Assembly (NCBI GenBank): GCA_023249255.1
Contig: JAHFCY010000076.1
Span: 4,081 to 12,880 of the forward strand
Length of the DNA stretch: 8,800 nucleotides
Reading direction: 5' to 3'
Source of the DNA: Candidatus Lindowiibacteriota bacterium
Lineage (GTDB): Bacteria > Lindowbacteria > 2-12-FULL-62-27
Under the pieces are notes generated by a model that ran no database searches, was not told the origin of the DNA, and worked only from the letters and a program-made list of their open reading frames with translations. Positions 95-7,424 of the stretch are shown here, in pieces (position 1 is the first letter of the stretch; every line of letters begins with the position of its first letter). The translations under genes were made by a program, and so were the position numbers.

Positions 95-301
95 CTACGG
101 CCGAGCGGCGGCGACAGGAGATTTCATCAGAGCCGGTATCGGCAGGCGCAACTTGGCGTCGAGAATTTCGATTCCGACGATTTTGTCATTCTCTGTGACG
201 TGGAGGATGACCCCCTCGCGCACCTCGACCGCGGCCTGCGGCCGGGTCTTGGACAACCGAAAATAGGCGGCGTCCGCCTCAGGATCGTAGGTGAATTTCA
301 T
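95..301 (-). CDS. DUF2283 family protein
   Basis: A complete 68-aa protein that matches the DUF2283 pattern along most of its length: MKFTYDPEADAAYFRLS at the start, a central GVILHVTENDKIVGIEIL stretch, then DAKLRL. Family members are small beta-rich proteins of about 60-75 aa and no biochemical role is established. They are often found next to DUF4258-type genes and have been suggested to form toxin-antitoxin-like pairs. The start is the ATG at 301 and not the in-frame ATG at 316, because GGAAGGAG lies between the two, 6 bases before the 301 start. The start codon overlaps the stop of an upstream remnant as ATGA, which points to former translational coupling. The C-terminal tail after about residue 55 is not part of the domain. 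Confidence 0.85.
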   Translation of the reverse strand: MKFTYDPEADAAYFRLSKTRPQAAVEVREGVILHVTENDKIVGIEILDAKLRLPIPALMKSPVAAARP

Positions 302-387
302 GATCGCTCCTTCCATCCGCGTTTGAGCGGATAAGCCGAGATGATGGCTTTGTCTGCGTCATTAGTGACAACCTTCAACGAAAATCA
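298..387 (-). pseudogene. C-terminal remnant of a DUF4258-like partner gene
   Basis: In the frame that ends with the TGA overlapping the DUF2283 start (ATGA), the last 28 codons include KVVTNDADKAIISAYP. This resembles the C-terminal strand pair of the small DUF4258-type proteins that commonly precede DUF2283 genes. The frame is interrupted immediately upstream by TGA at 385-387. Upstream of that TGA the same frame stays open to 576 (63 codons from an ATG), but that part has no recognisable N-terminal motif and overlaps the end of the next gene. The simplest reading is a decayed partner gene. A recoded TGA or an unrecognised real protein is less likely. The family assignment rests on a short segment. 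Confidence 0.4.
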
Positions 388-1033: not shown

Positions 1034-2032
1034 TCAACCCCGGACAGATTTCAAGAGTTCATGGCCGTACTCCTGTAAAAATTCGTTGACGGCCAGCACC
1101 AACGCGGCTTCGATGGTGCGGGCATAGGCACGTTTTGTGTCCGAAATGACCCGCTCCGTCACGATTAATCCGGACGGGGTTCGGTCCTGAATTCGAAGAA
1201 CAAACCGGGCGGCGATGAATTTGCGGTCGTAGAGGGTGTTTTCCAGATCGACGCAGGTTGTGACGTTGAGAATCCTTGGACATGGACCCGTTTCGGGGGC
1301 GGCGTTCAACAGGGCGATCCCTGATTTTGAAAGATACCCTGCTATTTCATCCATGATCTGATTGGCGCCAGACGCTGCCGGATCTGTCTGACAGATCACA
1401 ATGCCCTTTGCGGAGAATGAGTATTGGCTCTGACTCGAAGCGCGGCGACGCGCGATTTCCAGAATGGCTTTTTCAAGTTCGATCCTCGGGACTTCCGCCA
1501 GGACATGCGCCGTCCAGAATTCCTGTTTTTTCTCTTCATTGTAGAACCGCTGAACAAACCACGTTTTTGGATTGATCCGGCTGACGAACGCGTCTGACAA
1601 GATTGCCGTGGAGGAACTGGCGTCGACCACGATGGCGCCGTCGGCCGCGGTGGAGTTTCGGGTTCGGATTTCCGCGGAAGATCGCGATATGTCCTGCCCG
1701 ACGTAGTCGGTGACTTGCCGCACCACGTCCTGCATGGCGCTTGACCGGGCTTCGATTTCGCTCCGAGCGGAACCGGAAAGGCCGACAAAAAACATGAGAT
1801 AGGGCGTAGGCTCCGGCGTCGTGAGCGACCACAGGGGACGGTCGGCCGGTACCGCCTCGATGAGACGGCAGCGGCCTTCGTCCGAAAAGCAAACCTGACC
1901 TGTGAGGTGGCAGATCAAGGCCAAAGTCAGGATAAAGGCAACACACAAGCAAATGTGCCCCCTCACCCTGACCCTCTCCCCCATCTGCGCCGGAGGAGAG
2001 GGGATATTTCTGGCGCGGGACACGGCAGACAC
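1034..2032 (-). CDS. LPP20/FlgT-N-like envelope protein with an extra C-terminal domain
   Basis: Up to 332 aa. A hydrophobic segment (residues 29-46 when counted from the GTG at 2032) looks like a Sec signal or membrane anchor; no good lipobox is visible. Residues 65-113 (RPLW, then ARSEIEARSSAMQDVVRQVTDYVG) and 152-196 (INPKTWFVQRF, then FWTAHVLAEVP) form a domain clearly paralogous to the upstream lipoprotein and similar to LPP20/FlgT-N domains of periplasmic or outer-membrane lipoproteins. Residues about 205-332 form a further domain absent from the paralogue, with the pattern AARFVLRIQD, VTERVISDTK and EAALVLAVNEFL; such ends occur in CsgG/FlgT-like proteins, but this match is loose. The start is uncertain. 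The GTG at 2032 directly follows the previous stop and has no ribosome-binding site. The GTG at 1966 (GGAG 9 bases upstream) and the TTG at 1948 (GAGGGGG 9 bases upstream) have better sites, both supplied by a repeat. Confidence 0.75.
   Translation of the reverse strand: MSAVSRARNIPSPPAQMGERVRVRGHICLCVAFILTLALICHLTGQVCFSDEGRCRLIEAVPADRPLWSLTTPEPTPYLMFFVGLSGSARSEIEARSSAMQDVVRQVTDYVGQDISRSSAEIRTRNSTAADGAIVVDASSSTAILSDAFVSRINPKTWFVQRFYNEEKKQEFWTAHVLAEVPRIELEKAILEIARRRASSQSQYSFSAKGIVICQTDPAASGANQIMDEIAGYLSKSGIALLNAAPETGPCPRILNVTTCVDLENTLYDRKFIAARFVLRIQDRTPSGLIVTERVISDTKRAYARTIEAALVLAVNEFLQEYGHELLKSVRG
1957..2004. repeat. Dispersed palindromic repeat of the CCCTCACCC/GGAGAGGG type
   Basis: The stretch begins CCCCCTCACCCTGACCCTC and contains a perfect 8-bp inverted repeat, CCCTCTCC (1972-1979) and GGAGAGGG (1995-2002), with a 15-base loop. 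From memory, this CCCTCACCCTgACCCTCTCCC pattern is a widespread intergenic repeat in many bacteria. Read on the minus strand it encodes the low-complexity peptide SPPAQMGERVRVRG, familiar as an artefact at the ends of predicted proteins. Here it lies in the first codons of the second LPP20-like gene. Confidence 0.6.
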
Positions 2033-2650
2033 CTAAAATTTCGGAGCGGCCGTGTGCACGACCGCAAGCTCGTTTGCATTCAGGGAATACGTGGGGTTCT
2101 GCGTTTCGTATGCATTCGTGGCGCGGGCCGTGCGCGTGATTTCACGCTGAACCGCTTCGCGCGGCGCTTCAACCAGAACGAATGCCTGCCATAGAATTTT
2201 CGCGTTTTCCGTTTGAACTTTCTCCAGATACCACGACTTGGGTCGGACTTGCGAAACCGCGACCTGAACCGTCGCCCGGGCCGAGTTGCTGCTCTCAATC
2301 TGCAGGTTTCGATCCTTGCCGGAACTGTTGTCGTCCTTGCGCGTCTCACTGCGATCCTTCGCGACAAAATTCAACACGTAATCGGCGATTTCCTGCCGGG
2401 CGCGGAAAAGCGCGTGGTCCCGGGCGTCGAGTTCCGTGCTGAACCGGTCAGACACTCCGGTAGCGTAGAAAAACGCGCCCTGTTCGGCGTTTTCGATCAG
2501 CGTCCATTCGGGACGCGGATCGTGCGAGCGATAAAGAACCTTCTCGCCGGGATCAGACGTTACCGCCATATTCGGGTGTTTGGTGCAGGCCGTTGAAATC
2601 AGCAGTAAAATCGTGGGTAAGACAAGTGCCAGGAGTTTTTTGAAATTCAC
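2033..2650 (-). CDS. LPP20/FlgT-N-like lipoprotein, first gene of the envelope operon
   Basis: A 205-aa predicted lipoprotein. MNFKKLLALVLPTILLL is a typical signal sequence and ISTAC gives the probable lipidated Cys at residue 22; Ser at -3 is a weaker lipobox than Leu. The mature part carries RPEWT (residues 46-50), then ATGVSDRF and a long helix ARDHALFRARQEIADYV (76-92), a polar insert (100-125), and VRPKSWYLEKV to LWQAFVLVEAP (135-163). This is the pattern of LPP20/FlgT-N domains in periplasmic lipoproteins. The start is GTG at 2650: GGAGGT lies 7 bases upstream, whereas the in-frame GTG at 2665 would put that site inside the gene. Compared with the next gene it lacks the whole C-terminal domain and stops at YSLNANELAVVHTAAPKF, where the paralogue continues. 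The role in the envelope is unknown. Confidence 0.75.
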   Translation of the reverse strand: MNFKKLLALVLPTILLLISTACTKHPNMAVTSDPGEKVLYRSHDPRPEWTLIENAEQGAFFYATGVSDRFSTELDARDHALFRARQEIADYVLNFVAKDRSETRKDDNSSGKDRNLQIESSNSARATVQVAVSQVRPKSWYLEKVQTENAKILWQAFVLVEAPREAVQREITRTARATNAYETQNPTYSLNANELAVVHTAAPKF

Positions 2651-2833
2651 GATAACCACCTCCACGGATATTTTGTTTTAAAAGATCTTTGTCGTTCTGA
2701 GAGGACTAAACGTCCGAAACGTCGGGATTTTTCAAATCGAACGGCGGAAAGATTGCAATTCTATGATGACGAGGCAATAACCGGCTTACCAGCACGCCCA
2801 AGGGTGGACATGTCTCGAACGAGCGCGCATTCC
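2651..2833. other. Divergent intergenic region between the envelope operon and the carboxylase gene
   Basis: No gene is supported here. It holds a perfect 10-bp palindrome AAAGATCTTT (2681-2690), close upstream of the lipoprotein start, and a tandem pair AAACGTCCG (2708-2716) and AAACGTCGG (2717-2725). Both are possible regulatory sites. I saw no convincing sigma70-type promoter for the minus-strand operon. On the plus strand the carboxylase frame remains open back to a TTG at 2753, but that part has no family similarity. Confidence 0.45.
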
Positions 2834-2862
2834 TTGACGCCCGACGCGGGCGTTGGTCTAAT
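2834..2862 (+). promoter_or_regulatory. Sigma70-type promoter of the pyruvate carboxylase gene
   Basis: TTGACG (2834-2839) and TCTAAT (2857-2862) are each one mismatch from consensus and are separated by exactly 17 bases. Transcription would begin near 2868-2870, only 3-5 bases before the ATG at 2873, giving a nearly leaderless mRNA. The spacer holds an inverted repeat, ACGCCC (2838-2843) and GGGCGT (2848-2853), which could be an operator or chance in GC-rich DNA. Confidence 0.6.
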
Positions 2863-2872
2863 TGCGCTCACT

Positions 2873-5800
2873 ATGCCATTGAAAAATAAACAGACTGAAC
2901 GCCATCCCATTCGCAAACTCATGGTGGCGAATCGCGGGGAGATCGCGATCCGCATTTTCCGTGCCGCGACGGAACTTGGACTGGGGACCGTGTCCGTCCA
3001 CACCCACGAAGACCGGTTTGCGCTGCACCGGTTCAAATCGGATGAATCGTATCTGATCGGGCCCGAAGGCGGAGGCGAGCCGGTCAAATCGTATCTGAAC
3101 ATTTCGCAGATCGTCGCGGTCGCCCGGGATCACGGGGTCGACGCGATCCATCCCGGCTACGGATTTTTGGCCGAAAATGCCGACTTCGCGCGGGCCTGTG
3201 AAGAACACGGAGTGATTTTTGTCGGCCCTACGCCGCACCAGCTCGATTTGTTCGGCGACAAAACCGCAGCGCGGCGGGCAGCCCGGGATGCCGGCATTCC
3301 CATTCTGCCCGGAACCAACCGCGCGCTGAAAAATCTGCAGGAGGTCCGGGACGCGGCGAAAAAAATAGGGTACCCGGTGATCATCAAGGCGAGTTTCGGC
3401 GGCGGCGGCCGCGGCATGCGGGTCGTGCGAACCGCGGCGGAGTTGGCCGGCAAATTGGAGGAGGCGAGGCGCGAAGCGGGCGCGGCGTTCGGCAAGTCCG
3501 ACGTTTTTCTCGAACGATTCATCACCCGCGCCAAGCACATCGAAGTCCAGCTTCTCGGCGACAGCGACGGCCGGCTCGTCCATCTCTGGGAGCGCGACTG
3601 TTCCGTCCAGCGCCGCCACCAGAAAGTTGTCGAGGTTGCGCCGAGCCTGTGTCTGTCCGCCGACGTCCGGCTCGCCATCTGCGAGTCCGCGGTGCGGCTC
3701 TGCAAGCCGCTCAAGTATCGGAGCGCGGGAACCGTCGAATTTCTTTACGATCTCGACGAGGAAAAATTCTATTTTATCGAAGTCAATCCGCGGATTCAGG
3801 TCGAGCACACGGTCACCGAGGAGGTCACCGGCATCGATCTCGTCAAAAGCCAGATACTGATTGCCGATGGCCTCAAGTTGACCGATCCTGAACTCCACGT
3901 TCCGCCGCAAAACGAGATCGAGACGCGCGGCTATGCGATGCAGTGCCGGATCACCACGGAAGATCCGGCGAACCGATTCATTCCAGACTACGGACGGCTG
4001 ACGACCTATCGGTCGCCGGCGGGGTTCGGCGTCCGGCTGGACGGCGGATCTGCCTATGGCGGCGCCGTCATCACGCCCTATTACGATTCTCTGCTCGTCA
4101 AAGTCACCACGCGGGGTGCGACTCTCACCGAAAGCGTCCGGCGGATGGACCGGGCGCTTCGGGAGTTTCGTGTTCGCGGGGTCAAGACCAACATCCCGTT
4201 TTTGACGAACCTTATCGGCCATCCGACGTTCACTTCCGGGCAGGCGACAACCGCATTCATCGATGAAACGCCGGATCTCTTCCGGTTTCGAGTTCCGCGT
4301 GACCGCGCAACGAAACTTCTGTCGTATCTCGGCGATGTCATCGTCAATGGCCGGCCGGATGTCAAAAAGAAAATCGACCGCAAGCGTCGTTTTGCCGCAC
4401 CGATCGTGCCAGCACATCCGAAAGGCACGCCGCCGCCGACCGGGCTTCGTCAGTCTCTCCTCGACCTCGGCCCTGAAAAATTCTGCCAAAAAATCCGCGC
4501 GGACAGGAAACTCCTCTTCACCGACACGACGATGCGCGACGCACATCAGTCGATTCTGGCGACCCGCGTCCGCACCTACGACCTTCTGGCCATCGCCGAC
4601 GCGACCGCTCATCTGGTTCCGAATCTCTTCAGCCTCGAAATGTGGGGCGGCGCGACGTTCGACACCGCGATGCGATTTTTGCAGGAGGATCCGTGGGACC
4701 GCCTGATCGAACTTCGAAAACGGATCCCGAACATTCCGTTTCAGATGCTTCTGCGCGCGTCCAACGCCGTCGGATACACAAATTACCCGGACAACGTCGT
4801 TCGGGAGTTCATCAAGCTGTCCGCGCGGCACGGGATCGACATTTTCCGGATTTTCGATTCGCTCAACTGGACGGCCAACATGAAAGTTGCAATGGAAACC
4901 GTCCGGGAGCACACCAACGCCGTGTGCGAAGCCGCGATCTGCTACACGGGAGACATCCTGGATCCGGGACGGCCGAAATACAGTCTGAAATATTACGTCT
5001 CGATGGCCAGGGAACTTAAAAAAATGGGCGCGCACATTCTCGCGATCAAGGACATGGCGGGTCTCTGCAAGCCTTACGCCGCGCTGGCGCTCTTTAAGGC
5101 TCTCCGGGACGAAATCGATCTGCCGATCCACTATCACACGCACGACACCAGCGGCGTCACGGCCGCCAGTGTCCTTCGCGCGGCTGACGCGGGCGTCGAC
5201 ATCGTGGACGCCGCGCTCGCCTCCATGAGCGGCTCGACCAGCCAGCCCTGTTTGAACTCGCTCGCGGCGGCGATCCGCCATACGCCGCGCGACAGCGGCC
5301 TCGACGGCGTATCGCTCGATCAGCTTAGTGATTATTGGAAATCCGTCCGTGAGTTTTATTACCCGTTCGAGGAAGGCCTCAAGTCGCCCACGTCCGACGT
5401 CTACCGCCACGAGATGCCGGGCGGGCAGTACACGAATCTTCTCCAGCAGGCCAAGAGCCTGGGACTTGAATCCCGCTGGCCGGAAGTCTGCGACGCGTAC
5501 GCCGCGGCCAACCGGCTGTTCGGGGACATCGTCAAAGTCACGCCGTCGAGCAAGGTCGTCGGCGACATGGCGCTTTTCATGGTCACCAACCATCTCACGG
5601 TCGACGACGTGTTGTCGTCACAGAAACCGCTGTCGTTTCCCAGGAGTGTCGTCGAAATGATGCAGGGACTGCTCGGCCGCCCGCAGGAGGGATGGCCGAA
5701 AAAAATACAGGAGATCGTCCTGAAATCCGCGCGCGCCAAGGCCATCCGGGGCCGGCCCGGCGCGAGTCTCAAGAAGGTGAACCTCGACACGTCCCGGCGC

Positions 5801-6367
5801 GATCTGGCCGCCAAAATCGGCCGGGATCCGACCGGGGAGGAACTTCTGTCGTTCCTCCTCTATTCGCAGGTGTTTCTCGACTACGACAAACATAACCGGC
5901 AGTACGACAACGTCGGCGTCATCCCGACACCGCAGTTTTTCTACGGCCTTCAGCCCGGCGAGGAAATTTCGATCGACATCGAGGAAGGCAAAAGACTCAT
6001 TCTCAAATTCCTCACGACCGGAGAGCCTCACGAAGACGGCACGCGAACCGTTTTCTTTGAACTCAACGGCCAGCCGCGCGAGGTCAACGTCGTGGACCAT
6101 TCGCTTGAAGGCAAACTCCACAAACATCCGAAGGCAAATCCGGACAATCCGGACCACATCGCCGCGCCCATGCCGGGAAAAGTTTCGAATGTGGTCGCGG
6201 CCAAAGGCCAGGCGGTGAAATCGGGCGATCCGATTCTGTCCATTGAGGCGATGAAAATGGAAACGGCGATCTACTGTCCGAGGGACGCCAAGGTTGCCGA
6301 CATTCTGGTCCAGTCCGGCATGCACATCGAAGCCGGGGACCTGCTTATGGTTCTGGAGGCCGGCTGA
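2873..6367 (+). CDS. pyc: Pyruvate carboxylase, single-chain form
   Basis: Biotin- and ATP-dependent carboxylation of pyruvate to oxaloacetate, a cytoplasmic anaplerotic step feeding the TCA cycle and gluconeogenesis. The 1164 aa match the usual length of about 1150. The biotin carboxylase half (about residues 10-490) has K172 and the ATP loop GGGGRGM (176-182), RDCSVQRRHQKVVE, and EVNPRIQVEH with E303, N305 and R307. The carboxyltransferase domain has TDTTMRD with metal ligand D551, IKDMAGL with K726 (the lysine that is carbamylated in the family), HYHTHD with H755 and H757, and VTPSSKVVGD with T890. The C-terminal biotinyl domain has EAMKME, with the biotin-accepting K1128 located 36 residues before the end. 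The ATG at 2873 is chosen because the family similarity begins just after it and a strong promoter ends 10 bases before it. There is no Shine-Dalgarno sequence, in keeping with a leaderless start. Alternative in-frame starts are ATG 2810 and TTG 2753. The gene appears monocistronic. Confidence 0.97.
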   Translation: MPLKNKQTERHPIRKLMVANRGEIAIRIFRAATELGLGTVSVHTHEDRFALHRFKSDESYLIGPEGGGEPVKSYLNISQIVAVARDHGVDAIHPGYGFLAENADFARACEEHGVIFVGPTPHQLDLFGDKTAARRAARDAGIPILPGTNRALKNLQEVRDAAKKIGYPVIIKASFGGGGRGMRVVRTAAELAGKLEEARREAGAAFGKSDVFLERFITRAKHIEVQLLGDSDGRLVHLWERDCSVQRRHQKVVEVAPSLCLSADVRLAICESAVRLCKPLKYRSAGTVEFLYDLDEEKFYFIEVNPRIQVEHTVTEEVTGIDLVKSQILIADGLKLTDPELHVPPQNEIETRGYAMQCRITTEDPANRFIPDYGRLTTYRSPAGFGVRLDGGSAYGGAVITPYYDSLLVKVTTRGATLTESVRRMDRALREFRVRGVKTNIPFLTNLIGHPTFTSGQATTAFIDETPDLFRFRVPRDRATKLLSYLGDVIVNGRPDVKKKIDRKRRFAAPIVPAHPKGTPPPTGLRQSLLDLGPEKFCQKIRADRKLLFTDTTMRDAHQSILATRVRTYDLLAIADATAHLVPNLFSLEMWGGATFDTAMRFLQEDPWDRLIELRKRIPNIPFQMLLRASNAVGYTNYPDNVVREFIKLSARHGIDIFRIFDSLNWTANMKVAMETVREHTNAVCEAAICYTGDILDPGRPKYSLKYYVSMARELKKMGAHILAIKDMAGLCKPYAALALFKALRDEIDLPIHYHTHDTSGVTAASVLRAADAGVDIVDAALASMSGSTSQPCLNSLAAAIRHTPRDSGLDGVSLDQLSDYWKSVREFYYPFEEGLKSPTSDVYRHEMPGGQYTNLLQQAKSLGLESRWPEVCDAYAAANRLFGDIVKVTPSSKVVGDMALFMVTNHLTVDDVLSSQKPLSFPRSVVEMMQGLLGRPQEGWPKKIQEIVLKSARAKAIRGRPGASLKKVNLDTSRRDLAAKIGRDPTGEELLSFLLYSQVFLDYDKHNRQYDNVGVIPTPQFFYGLQPGEEISIDIEEGKRLILKFLTTGEPHEDGTRTVFFELNGQPREVNVVDHSLEGKLHKHPKANPDNPDHIAAPMPGKVSNVVAAKGQAVKSGDPILSIEAMKMETAIYCPRDAKVADILVQSGMHIEAGDLLMVLEAG

Positions 6368-7424
6368 CCGGCGCGGGCGCGCCTTCCTTTGAAAAAGTGA
6401 GTTCGAGTTGTCGTTCGTCCGTCTGATAATTGCGGTCTGGCCGGACCCAGAAAAACGGCCGCGAGATCGGCAGGCGCTTGATCGACGTCGGACGGGCGTA
6501 GATATCGAGATATTCAGATAGAGCCGCCTGAAAGTCGGGTAGAAACGAAAACGACGACAGGGGGTTCGACGACCCGGCCGTTTTTGCGTACCATTCACAT
6601 AAAAATTTTCGGCTCGGTACTTCCCTCGGAACAATATGAATCTGAAATCTCGGATGACGTTTCAGCCACCGAAACGCGTGCGGAAACAGCACGAGGCTCC
6701 GGCGCGGAACCAGAAGATGCACGATGGCATCCGCGGGCGTGTGTGAATCAACCCATTTGAGAAAATAGAGCATATCCGGTTTGACCGGTTGAGTCGCGGG
6801 CCGTCGGGCGATTGCTCGAAGAACGCGGCTGATCAGCGTGTCGTCTTTTGACACGGCGGGCGGATTGTCGAGATGCCGCGCCGACGATTTGACATCCTGC
6901 GTGAGAAGCGCCACCGCGAAGGATTCATCCGACGCGATATAGACGCCCGAAATCTCCCGGGCGTTAAGATAAAACGATTCGTCATGCCGGAATTTGAATT
7001 CATCGTCGACCGGTTTTAATCCGTAGGATTTCCAGATGCGCTGAACGGCGCTGCGGCTGATTCCCAGAAATTTTGAGATGTTTCGAACCGACCAGCGGCG
7101 GCCCCGGACGGGCCATTTCTGGAGCGTCGTTTCAACGACCTTCCGAATTTCCTCATCATCGTGCCGGCGGCGGGTGATTTTTTGCCGGCCCATGACCTGA
7201 TCCAGCCCGCCCGCGCAAAACCGGTTGCGCCAATAGAGGACAGTCGAGGCCGACACGCCAAGCCGTGCGGCAATGCCGGCGGTCGGGTGGCCGGCCGCGG
7301 ACAACAAAATGATCCACGCGCGGATGATCGCCCGAAGCGGAACGCCCGCCCGGTCGACCAGCGCCTCGAGGGCCTTCCGGTCTTTCGATGTCAGTTTGAG
7401 AGTTCCCGTTTCCCCCGCTCTCAT
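6345..7424 (-). CDS. IS630-type transposase-derived protein, catalytic residues lost
   Basis: An intact 359-aa frame with the architecture and length of IS630 (Tc1/mariner superfamily) transposases. A first helix-turn-helix lies at residues 34-68 (IAARLGVSASTVLYWRNRF), a second at 110-137 (LGISRSAVQRIWKSYGLKP), followed by an RNase H-like region and the family C-terminus (IYARP, then RPFFWVRP). By eye, against my memory of the family, the alignment is ungapped around the active site, yet the residues differ. The first Asp (usual VDEKSQ) is T175 in LLTQDVKS. The second Asp (usual LDNY) is P240 in LLVPRRS. The final Glu (usual LVERFF) is C276 in FLCEWY, with E277 adjacent. About 30 residues of the core between the first two are missing. 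It should not transpose; a DNA-binding or regulatory role is inferred. The start at 7424 is supported by a promoter just upstream. The last codons overlap the end of the carboxylase gene by 23 bases. Confidence 0.8.
   Translation of the reverse strand: MRAGETGTLKLTSKDRKALEALVDRAGVPLRAIIRAWIILLSAAGHPTAGIAARLGVSASTVLYWRNRFCAGGLDQVMGRQKITRRRHDDEEIRKVVETTLQKWPVRGRRWSVRNISKFLGISRSAVQRIWKSYGLKPVDDEFKFRHDESFYLNAREISGVYIASDESFAVALLTQDVKSSARHLDNPPAVSKDDTLISRVLRAIARRPATQPVKPDMLYFLKWVDSHTPADAIVHLLVPRRSLVLFPHAFRWLKRHPRFQIHIVPREVPSRKFLCEWYAKTAGSSNPLSSFSFLPDFQAALSEYLDIYARPTSIKRLPISRPFFWVRPDRNYQTDERQLELTFSKEGAPAPVSRPPEP
6359..6390 (+). terminator. Possible weak terminator of the carboxylase gene
   Basis: Two short GC hairpins overlap the stop codon. 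The first is GCCGG (6359-6363) with CCGGC (6368-6372). The second is GGCGC (6370-6374) with GCGCC (6379-6383), followed by TTCCTTT. They share bases and so are alternatives. The second, with its pyrimidine tail, is the better intrinsic-terminator candidate, but the stem is only 5 bp and the T-run is broken. Confidence 0.3.

Follow-up and report, generated by a model that had tools for sequence, protein, structure and literature searches.

The question raised by this locus is whether an IS630-type transposase gene that has kept its reading frame, but seems to have lost its active site, is a decaying insertion or has been taken over by its host. The window, a stretch of 8,800 nt, corresponds to positions 4081–12880 of contig C317 in a genome of the phylum Lindowbacteria, a little studied group. 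This source genome (G000; 3.35 Mb, 366 contigs) was compared with two others of the phylum, Candidatus Lindowbacteria bacterium RIFCSPLOWO2_12_FULL_62_27 (G001), which belongs to another genus, and G002. The gene is found at 6345–7424 on the minus strand, with an ATG at 7424 and the stop codon at 6345–6347, and codes for an IS630-derived, catalytically dead protein of 359 aa, here called P0001. A homologue from contig MFPR01000020.1 of G001, P0002, starts at the matching methionine. The uninterrupted 359-aa frame that a sequence-only reading had reported, without naming the strand, is thus present, on the minus strand. The open frame alone is weak evidence for a gene, since the window, which is rich in G+C, also contains long open frames in antisense; one of these, of 911 aa, lies opposite the pyruvate carboxylase gene.

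The stop end of the P0001 gene overlaps the 3' end of this convergent pyruvate carboxylase gene (2753–6367, plus strand) by 23 bases, and a divergent gene for a PMT_2-type membrane protein starts upstream of it at about 7524 (plus strand). The pyruvate carboxylase is 55–57% identical to the enzymes of G001 and G002, which share 75% with each other, whereas gyrB is about equally distant among the three genomes. It may possibly have been acquired horizontally or be an old paralogue. Contamination of the bin, raised by this divergent enzyme, was rejected, as the tetranucleotide profile of the contig fits the genome (r 0.964); it is also countered by the sole close homologue of P0001 coming from the same phylum. 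The first 4 kb of the contig, upstream of the window (L005 1–4000), have a lower G+C content (0.50) and a tetranucleotide correlation of only r 0.70 with the rest of the genome and are possibly an acquired segment. Within the window, two adjacent ORFs of 332 and 210 aa (1034–2665, minus strand) are without a Pfam match at E ≤ 0.1, the 210-aa one having a lipoprotein-like start, and a small DUF2283 protein is encoded at 95–316 (minus strand). The end of the contig (window 8674–8800) overlaps the end of contig C343 (L103 11882–12008) over 127 bases at 97%, which probably represents the continuation of the PMT-type gene.

The N-terminal 140 residues of P0001 match the Pfam families HTH_23, HTH_29 and HTH_32, and the NCBIfam IS630 model matches residues 35–140, in agreement with the claim that both helix-turn-helix regions are kept. 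The first of them comprises residues 31–76 (7197–7334, minus strand; HTH_23, E 1.5e-14; pLDDT at or above about 90 for most residues), the second residues 90–135 (7020–7157, minus strand; HTH_32 over 61–131, E 3.7e-9), with structural likeness to the bipartite domains of Tc3, SETMAR and PAX. The N-terminal half is a double helix-turn-helix of the IS630/paired type. Together with a near full-length alignment to IS630 proteins, this bipartite domain places the descent of P0001 within the IS630 family (IS630-Tc1-mariner group). Both have two N-terminal helix-turn-helix units and the same order of core segments, including a FRWLKRHPRF-type stretch between the second and third catalytic sites, and they are about 25–29% identical over most of their length.

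The catalytic core gives a different picture. P0001 has no Pfam match to DDE_3 (PF13358) at E ≤ 0.1, while this profile scores an intact homologue at 75 bits. Alignments were made of P0001 with 17 IS630 proteins from related loci and further ones from genome searches, yielding a comparison set of about 30 ordinary IS630 homologues. In these, P240 (6705–6707; DNY replaced by PRR) and C276 (6597–6599) align gap-free to the second Asp and to the Glu, with 35 residues between them, as is the spacing in IS630; P0002 has Pro and Gln at the two positions. At the first catalytic Asp the ungapped alignment places T175 (6900–6902); when further sequences are added, however, MAFFT opens a two-residue insertion that brings D177 (6894–6896; all on the minus strand) to this site. 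P0002 has Ala there and no Asp nearby. Hence neither protein has a DDE or DDD triad, P0001 reading T (or D177)/P/C and P0002 A/P/Q. Of the claim that all three catalytic positions are replaced, the part on sites 2 and 3 is firm, as is the gap-free alignment around them, while site 1 depends on the alignment. Nearly all of the other homologues retain D, D and E. Exceptions are L076, where site 1 is aberrant, and the gene designated both L012 and L072, which codes for an otherwise ordinary IS630 transposase of full length with Asn in place of the first catalytic Asp; furthermore, L074 and L080 cover only fragments, and the core of L015 is disrupted.

A block of the core around THDYKRHGTTTLFAAL (rough limits) is missing from both P0001 and P0002. 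Counted from the sequences, 64 residues lie between sites 1 and 2 in P0001, 72 in P0002 and 82 in the IS630 homologue L041. The core had been described as shortened by about 30 residues; one block is indeed missing, but relative to L041 P0001 has a net loss of 18 residues and P0002 one of 10. The C-terminal tail, residues 316–342 (6399–6479, minus strand; KRLPISRPFFWVRPDRNYQTDERQLEL), has been rebuilt and is common to these two proteins only.

In AlphaFold2 models of both proteins the two helix-turn-helix units are confident (pLDDT mostly 80–96) and the remainder is low. The part modelled with confidence is similar to the bipartite DNA-binding domains mentioned above, all scores being weak: Foldseek returned no match with E below 0.001 for either model, and its first rank for P0001, Mos1, had E 0.011 (VIA Z 5.7, rmsd 22.9), with low pLDDT in the core. 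The predicted core elements are two short strands (162–172), a helix (218–228), a strand (234–240), a helix (248–255), a strand (260–265) and a helix (271–283), an arrangement that would fit an RNase H core minus strands 2–3.

P0002 is the only homologue in G001 and is 54% identical to P0001. Thus, a triad-less homologue, as looked for in support of domestication, exists in another genus of Lindowbacteria. Both proteins lack the core block, carry LPRRS instead of the DNY motif, and share PHAFRWLKRHPRF as well as the new tail (KRLP...PFFWVRPDRNYxTDExQLEL), with an insertion of about eight residues before the PFxW motif. Because the deletion, LPRRS and the tail are derived and shared, the most economical reading is that the common ancestor of both was already catalytically dead. 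A maximum likelihood tree groups the two with 100/100 support, and the stem leading to them is very long, at about 3 changes per site. The particular T/P/C replacements are not conserved: sites 1 and 3 differ and the Pro of site 2 is the only one in common. No homologue was found in G002, a genome 81% complete. A first scan of genome contigs with peptide patterns found no close relatives, and a second one only the G001 gene and an IS630 of Acidobacteria. Viral contigs and phages held no close relatives, and plasmids only homologues of less than 60% identity, the annotated ones being IS630 transposases. In two samples of about 390 genomes, the matches that were aligned included no other dead homologue.

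The pairwise comparison of the P0001 and P0002 genes (NG86) gives dN 0.404, dS 1.56 and dN/dS 0.26, far below 1, with 0.15 for residues 1–145 and 0.36 for residues 146–359; as dS is nearly saturated and one pair of sequences was compared, these ratios are rough. By codon position the genes differ at 37%, 25% and 57%. When neutral drift of the gene over half that distance per lineage was simulated, a mean of 13 stops accumulated and none of 2000 runs remained stop-free. Both halves of the protein are evidently under purifying selection, the helix-turn-helix half, which is 64% identical between P0001 and P0002, being the most constrained. Between G000 and G001, gyrA is 86%, gyrB 84% and pyruvate carboxylase about 56% identical. 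Compared with the gyrases the P0001 gene, at 54%, evolves faster, yet it is held.

G000 contains a single gene of the P0001 type, and a search of this genome with PF13358 found no DDE_3 protein; a near-identical active copy, which would have pointed to one recently mutated insertion, is therefore not found in this genome. G001 and G002 each have one DDE_3 protein, detected by the DDE_3 profile only and not among the matches of P0001. Terminal inverted repeats bracketing the gene were found neither in G000 nor in G001 by an ungapped search for 11 nt or more. An orthologue at a matching locus had been anticipated; however, the flanking genes differ, pyruvate carboxylase and the PMT-type membrane protein in G000, gyrA and a GDPD gene in G001. 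The latter site is not comparable in G000, because the gyrA contig there ends 76 bases past gyrA. Under domestication one therefore has to assume a rearrangement, or movement before fixation. The differing loci are the main weakness of this reading and count, together with the lack of a homologue in G002, against simple vertical descent. Further points against it are the unlike residues at sites 1 and 3, the single, nearly saturated comparison behind the selection estimate, and the low pLDDT of the core model.

The different loci also fit the view that P0001 and P0002 are merely two decaying IS630 insertions whose frames are open by chance, as do the different residues at sites 1 and 3; in addition, the long antisense frames of the window weaken the evidence from the open frame. 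Against this stand the shared derived features, which indicate an ancestor already dead, and a dN/dS of 0.26 since then with neither stop nor frameshift, so that we regard two pseudogenes as quite improbable. The different positions would likewise be expected of a gene that is still mobile, be it as a divergent transposase whose active site has been relocated, for which D177 might replace the first Asp in P0001, or as a protein mobilised by another transposase. However, sites 2 and 3 lack a carboxylate in either protein, P0002 has Ala at site 1, the core block is deleted, and the gene is a single copy devoid of detectable inverted repeats. Continued mobility is thus very improbable.

Two other explanations accept that the protein is dead and kept. 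A dominant-negative inhibitor would be expected to combine an intact DNA-binding half with a dead core, and P0001 might bind to related IS630 elements at their ends and block their transposase. Yet G000 has no related active IS630, the DDE_3 proteins of G001 and G002 are not among the matches of P0001, and given so long a stem it is doubtful whether the protein would recognise present-day IS ends; we consider such an antagonist unlikely. A host protein whose present role does not involve DNA binding could be proposed because no target DNA is known, but it is precisely the helix-turn-helix half that is most constrained and still matches its profiles. This possibility therefore appears extremely remote.

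The P0001 gene is, then, quite probably a domesticated IS630 transposase kept as a single-copy host gene. Its ancestry, the loss of catalytic residues and the dead state shared with P0002 are apparent from the alignments, and an inactive transposase under purifying selection is seen across two genera. The takeover by the host, as first proposed, gains its deciding support from the triad-less homologue in a second genus and further support from this selection, and domestication can be called well supported, by two sequences only. According to the scenario we favour, an IS630 transposase gene would have lost its terminal repeats and the DDE chemistry before the two Lindowbacteria genera split: the second Asp became Pro, the Glu was lost, the first Asp was lost or displaced, and a core block, taken to be strands 2–3, was deleted. 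A new C-terminal tail would have been gained in the ancestor, and the gene since retained as a single-copy host gene. As the helix-turn-helix half is conserved, we infer that P0001 now serves as a DNA-binding protein. The paired-type double helix-turn-helix may bind specific DNA, and the degenerate core with the new tail may act as a dimerisation or protein-contact module, the outcome being a putative regulatory or architectural factor acting in trans and of presumed benefit to the host. We would give somewhat better than even chances to a more specific idea: an entire dead IS630 transposase may have been turned into a DNA-binding regulator or an architectural protein of the chromosome that is peculiar to this phylum, its decayed core and new tail serving as a module for protein interaction. 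It would then be a bacterial parallel to CENP-B of mammals that arose independently.

Vertebrates have a dozen genes that originated from pogo transposases, including CENPB, and in CENPB, TIGD3, TIGD4 and TIGD5 the triad can no longer be recognised (PMC7386202). As in P0001, a full-length transposase of the IS630-Tc1-mariner group has become a host protein with an unrecognisable triad (PMC7386202). Unlike P0001, these proteins are eukaryotic and pogo-derived, and the DDE domain is said to be wholly preserved in them, whereas P0001 lacks a core block; the dead state is of independent origin. From IS630 transposases themselves P0001 differs by the absence of carboxylates at sites 2 and 3, the deleted core block, the new tail, its single copy without inverted repeats found, and the unmatched DDE_3 profile. 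Among prokaryotes, TnpA-REP (RAYT) has been called the first domesticated transposase (PMC8266576), a class to which P0001 would belong. However, TnpA-REP is of the HUH type, stands near the IS200/IS605 family and still cleaves REP sequences. TldR proteins, which derive from TnpB, likewise descend from a transposon protein, in bacteria or phages. They regulate transcription as RNA-guided transcription factors (PMC13418256). Unlike P0001, they have no DDE transposase as ancestor, and nothing in our reading of P0001 implies a guide RNA.

For vertebrates there is good documentation that IS630-Tc1-mariner transposases have been domesticated as host DNA-binding proteins. The bacterial domestications in the open-licence literature searched have other origins (TnpA-REP, TldR), and no domesticated bacterial IS630 was found there. 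If our reading is true, a dead, selectively maintained IS630 protein would show that bacteria can follow this route as well, and P0001 and P0002 would form a defined pair for testing why a dead DDE core is retained.
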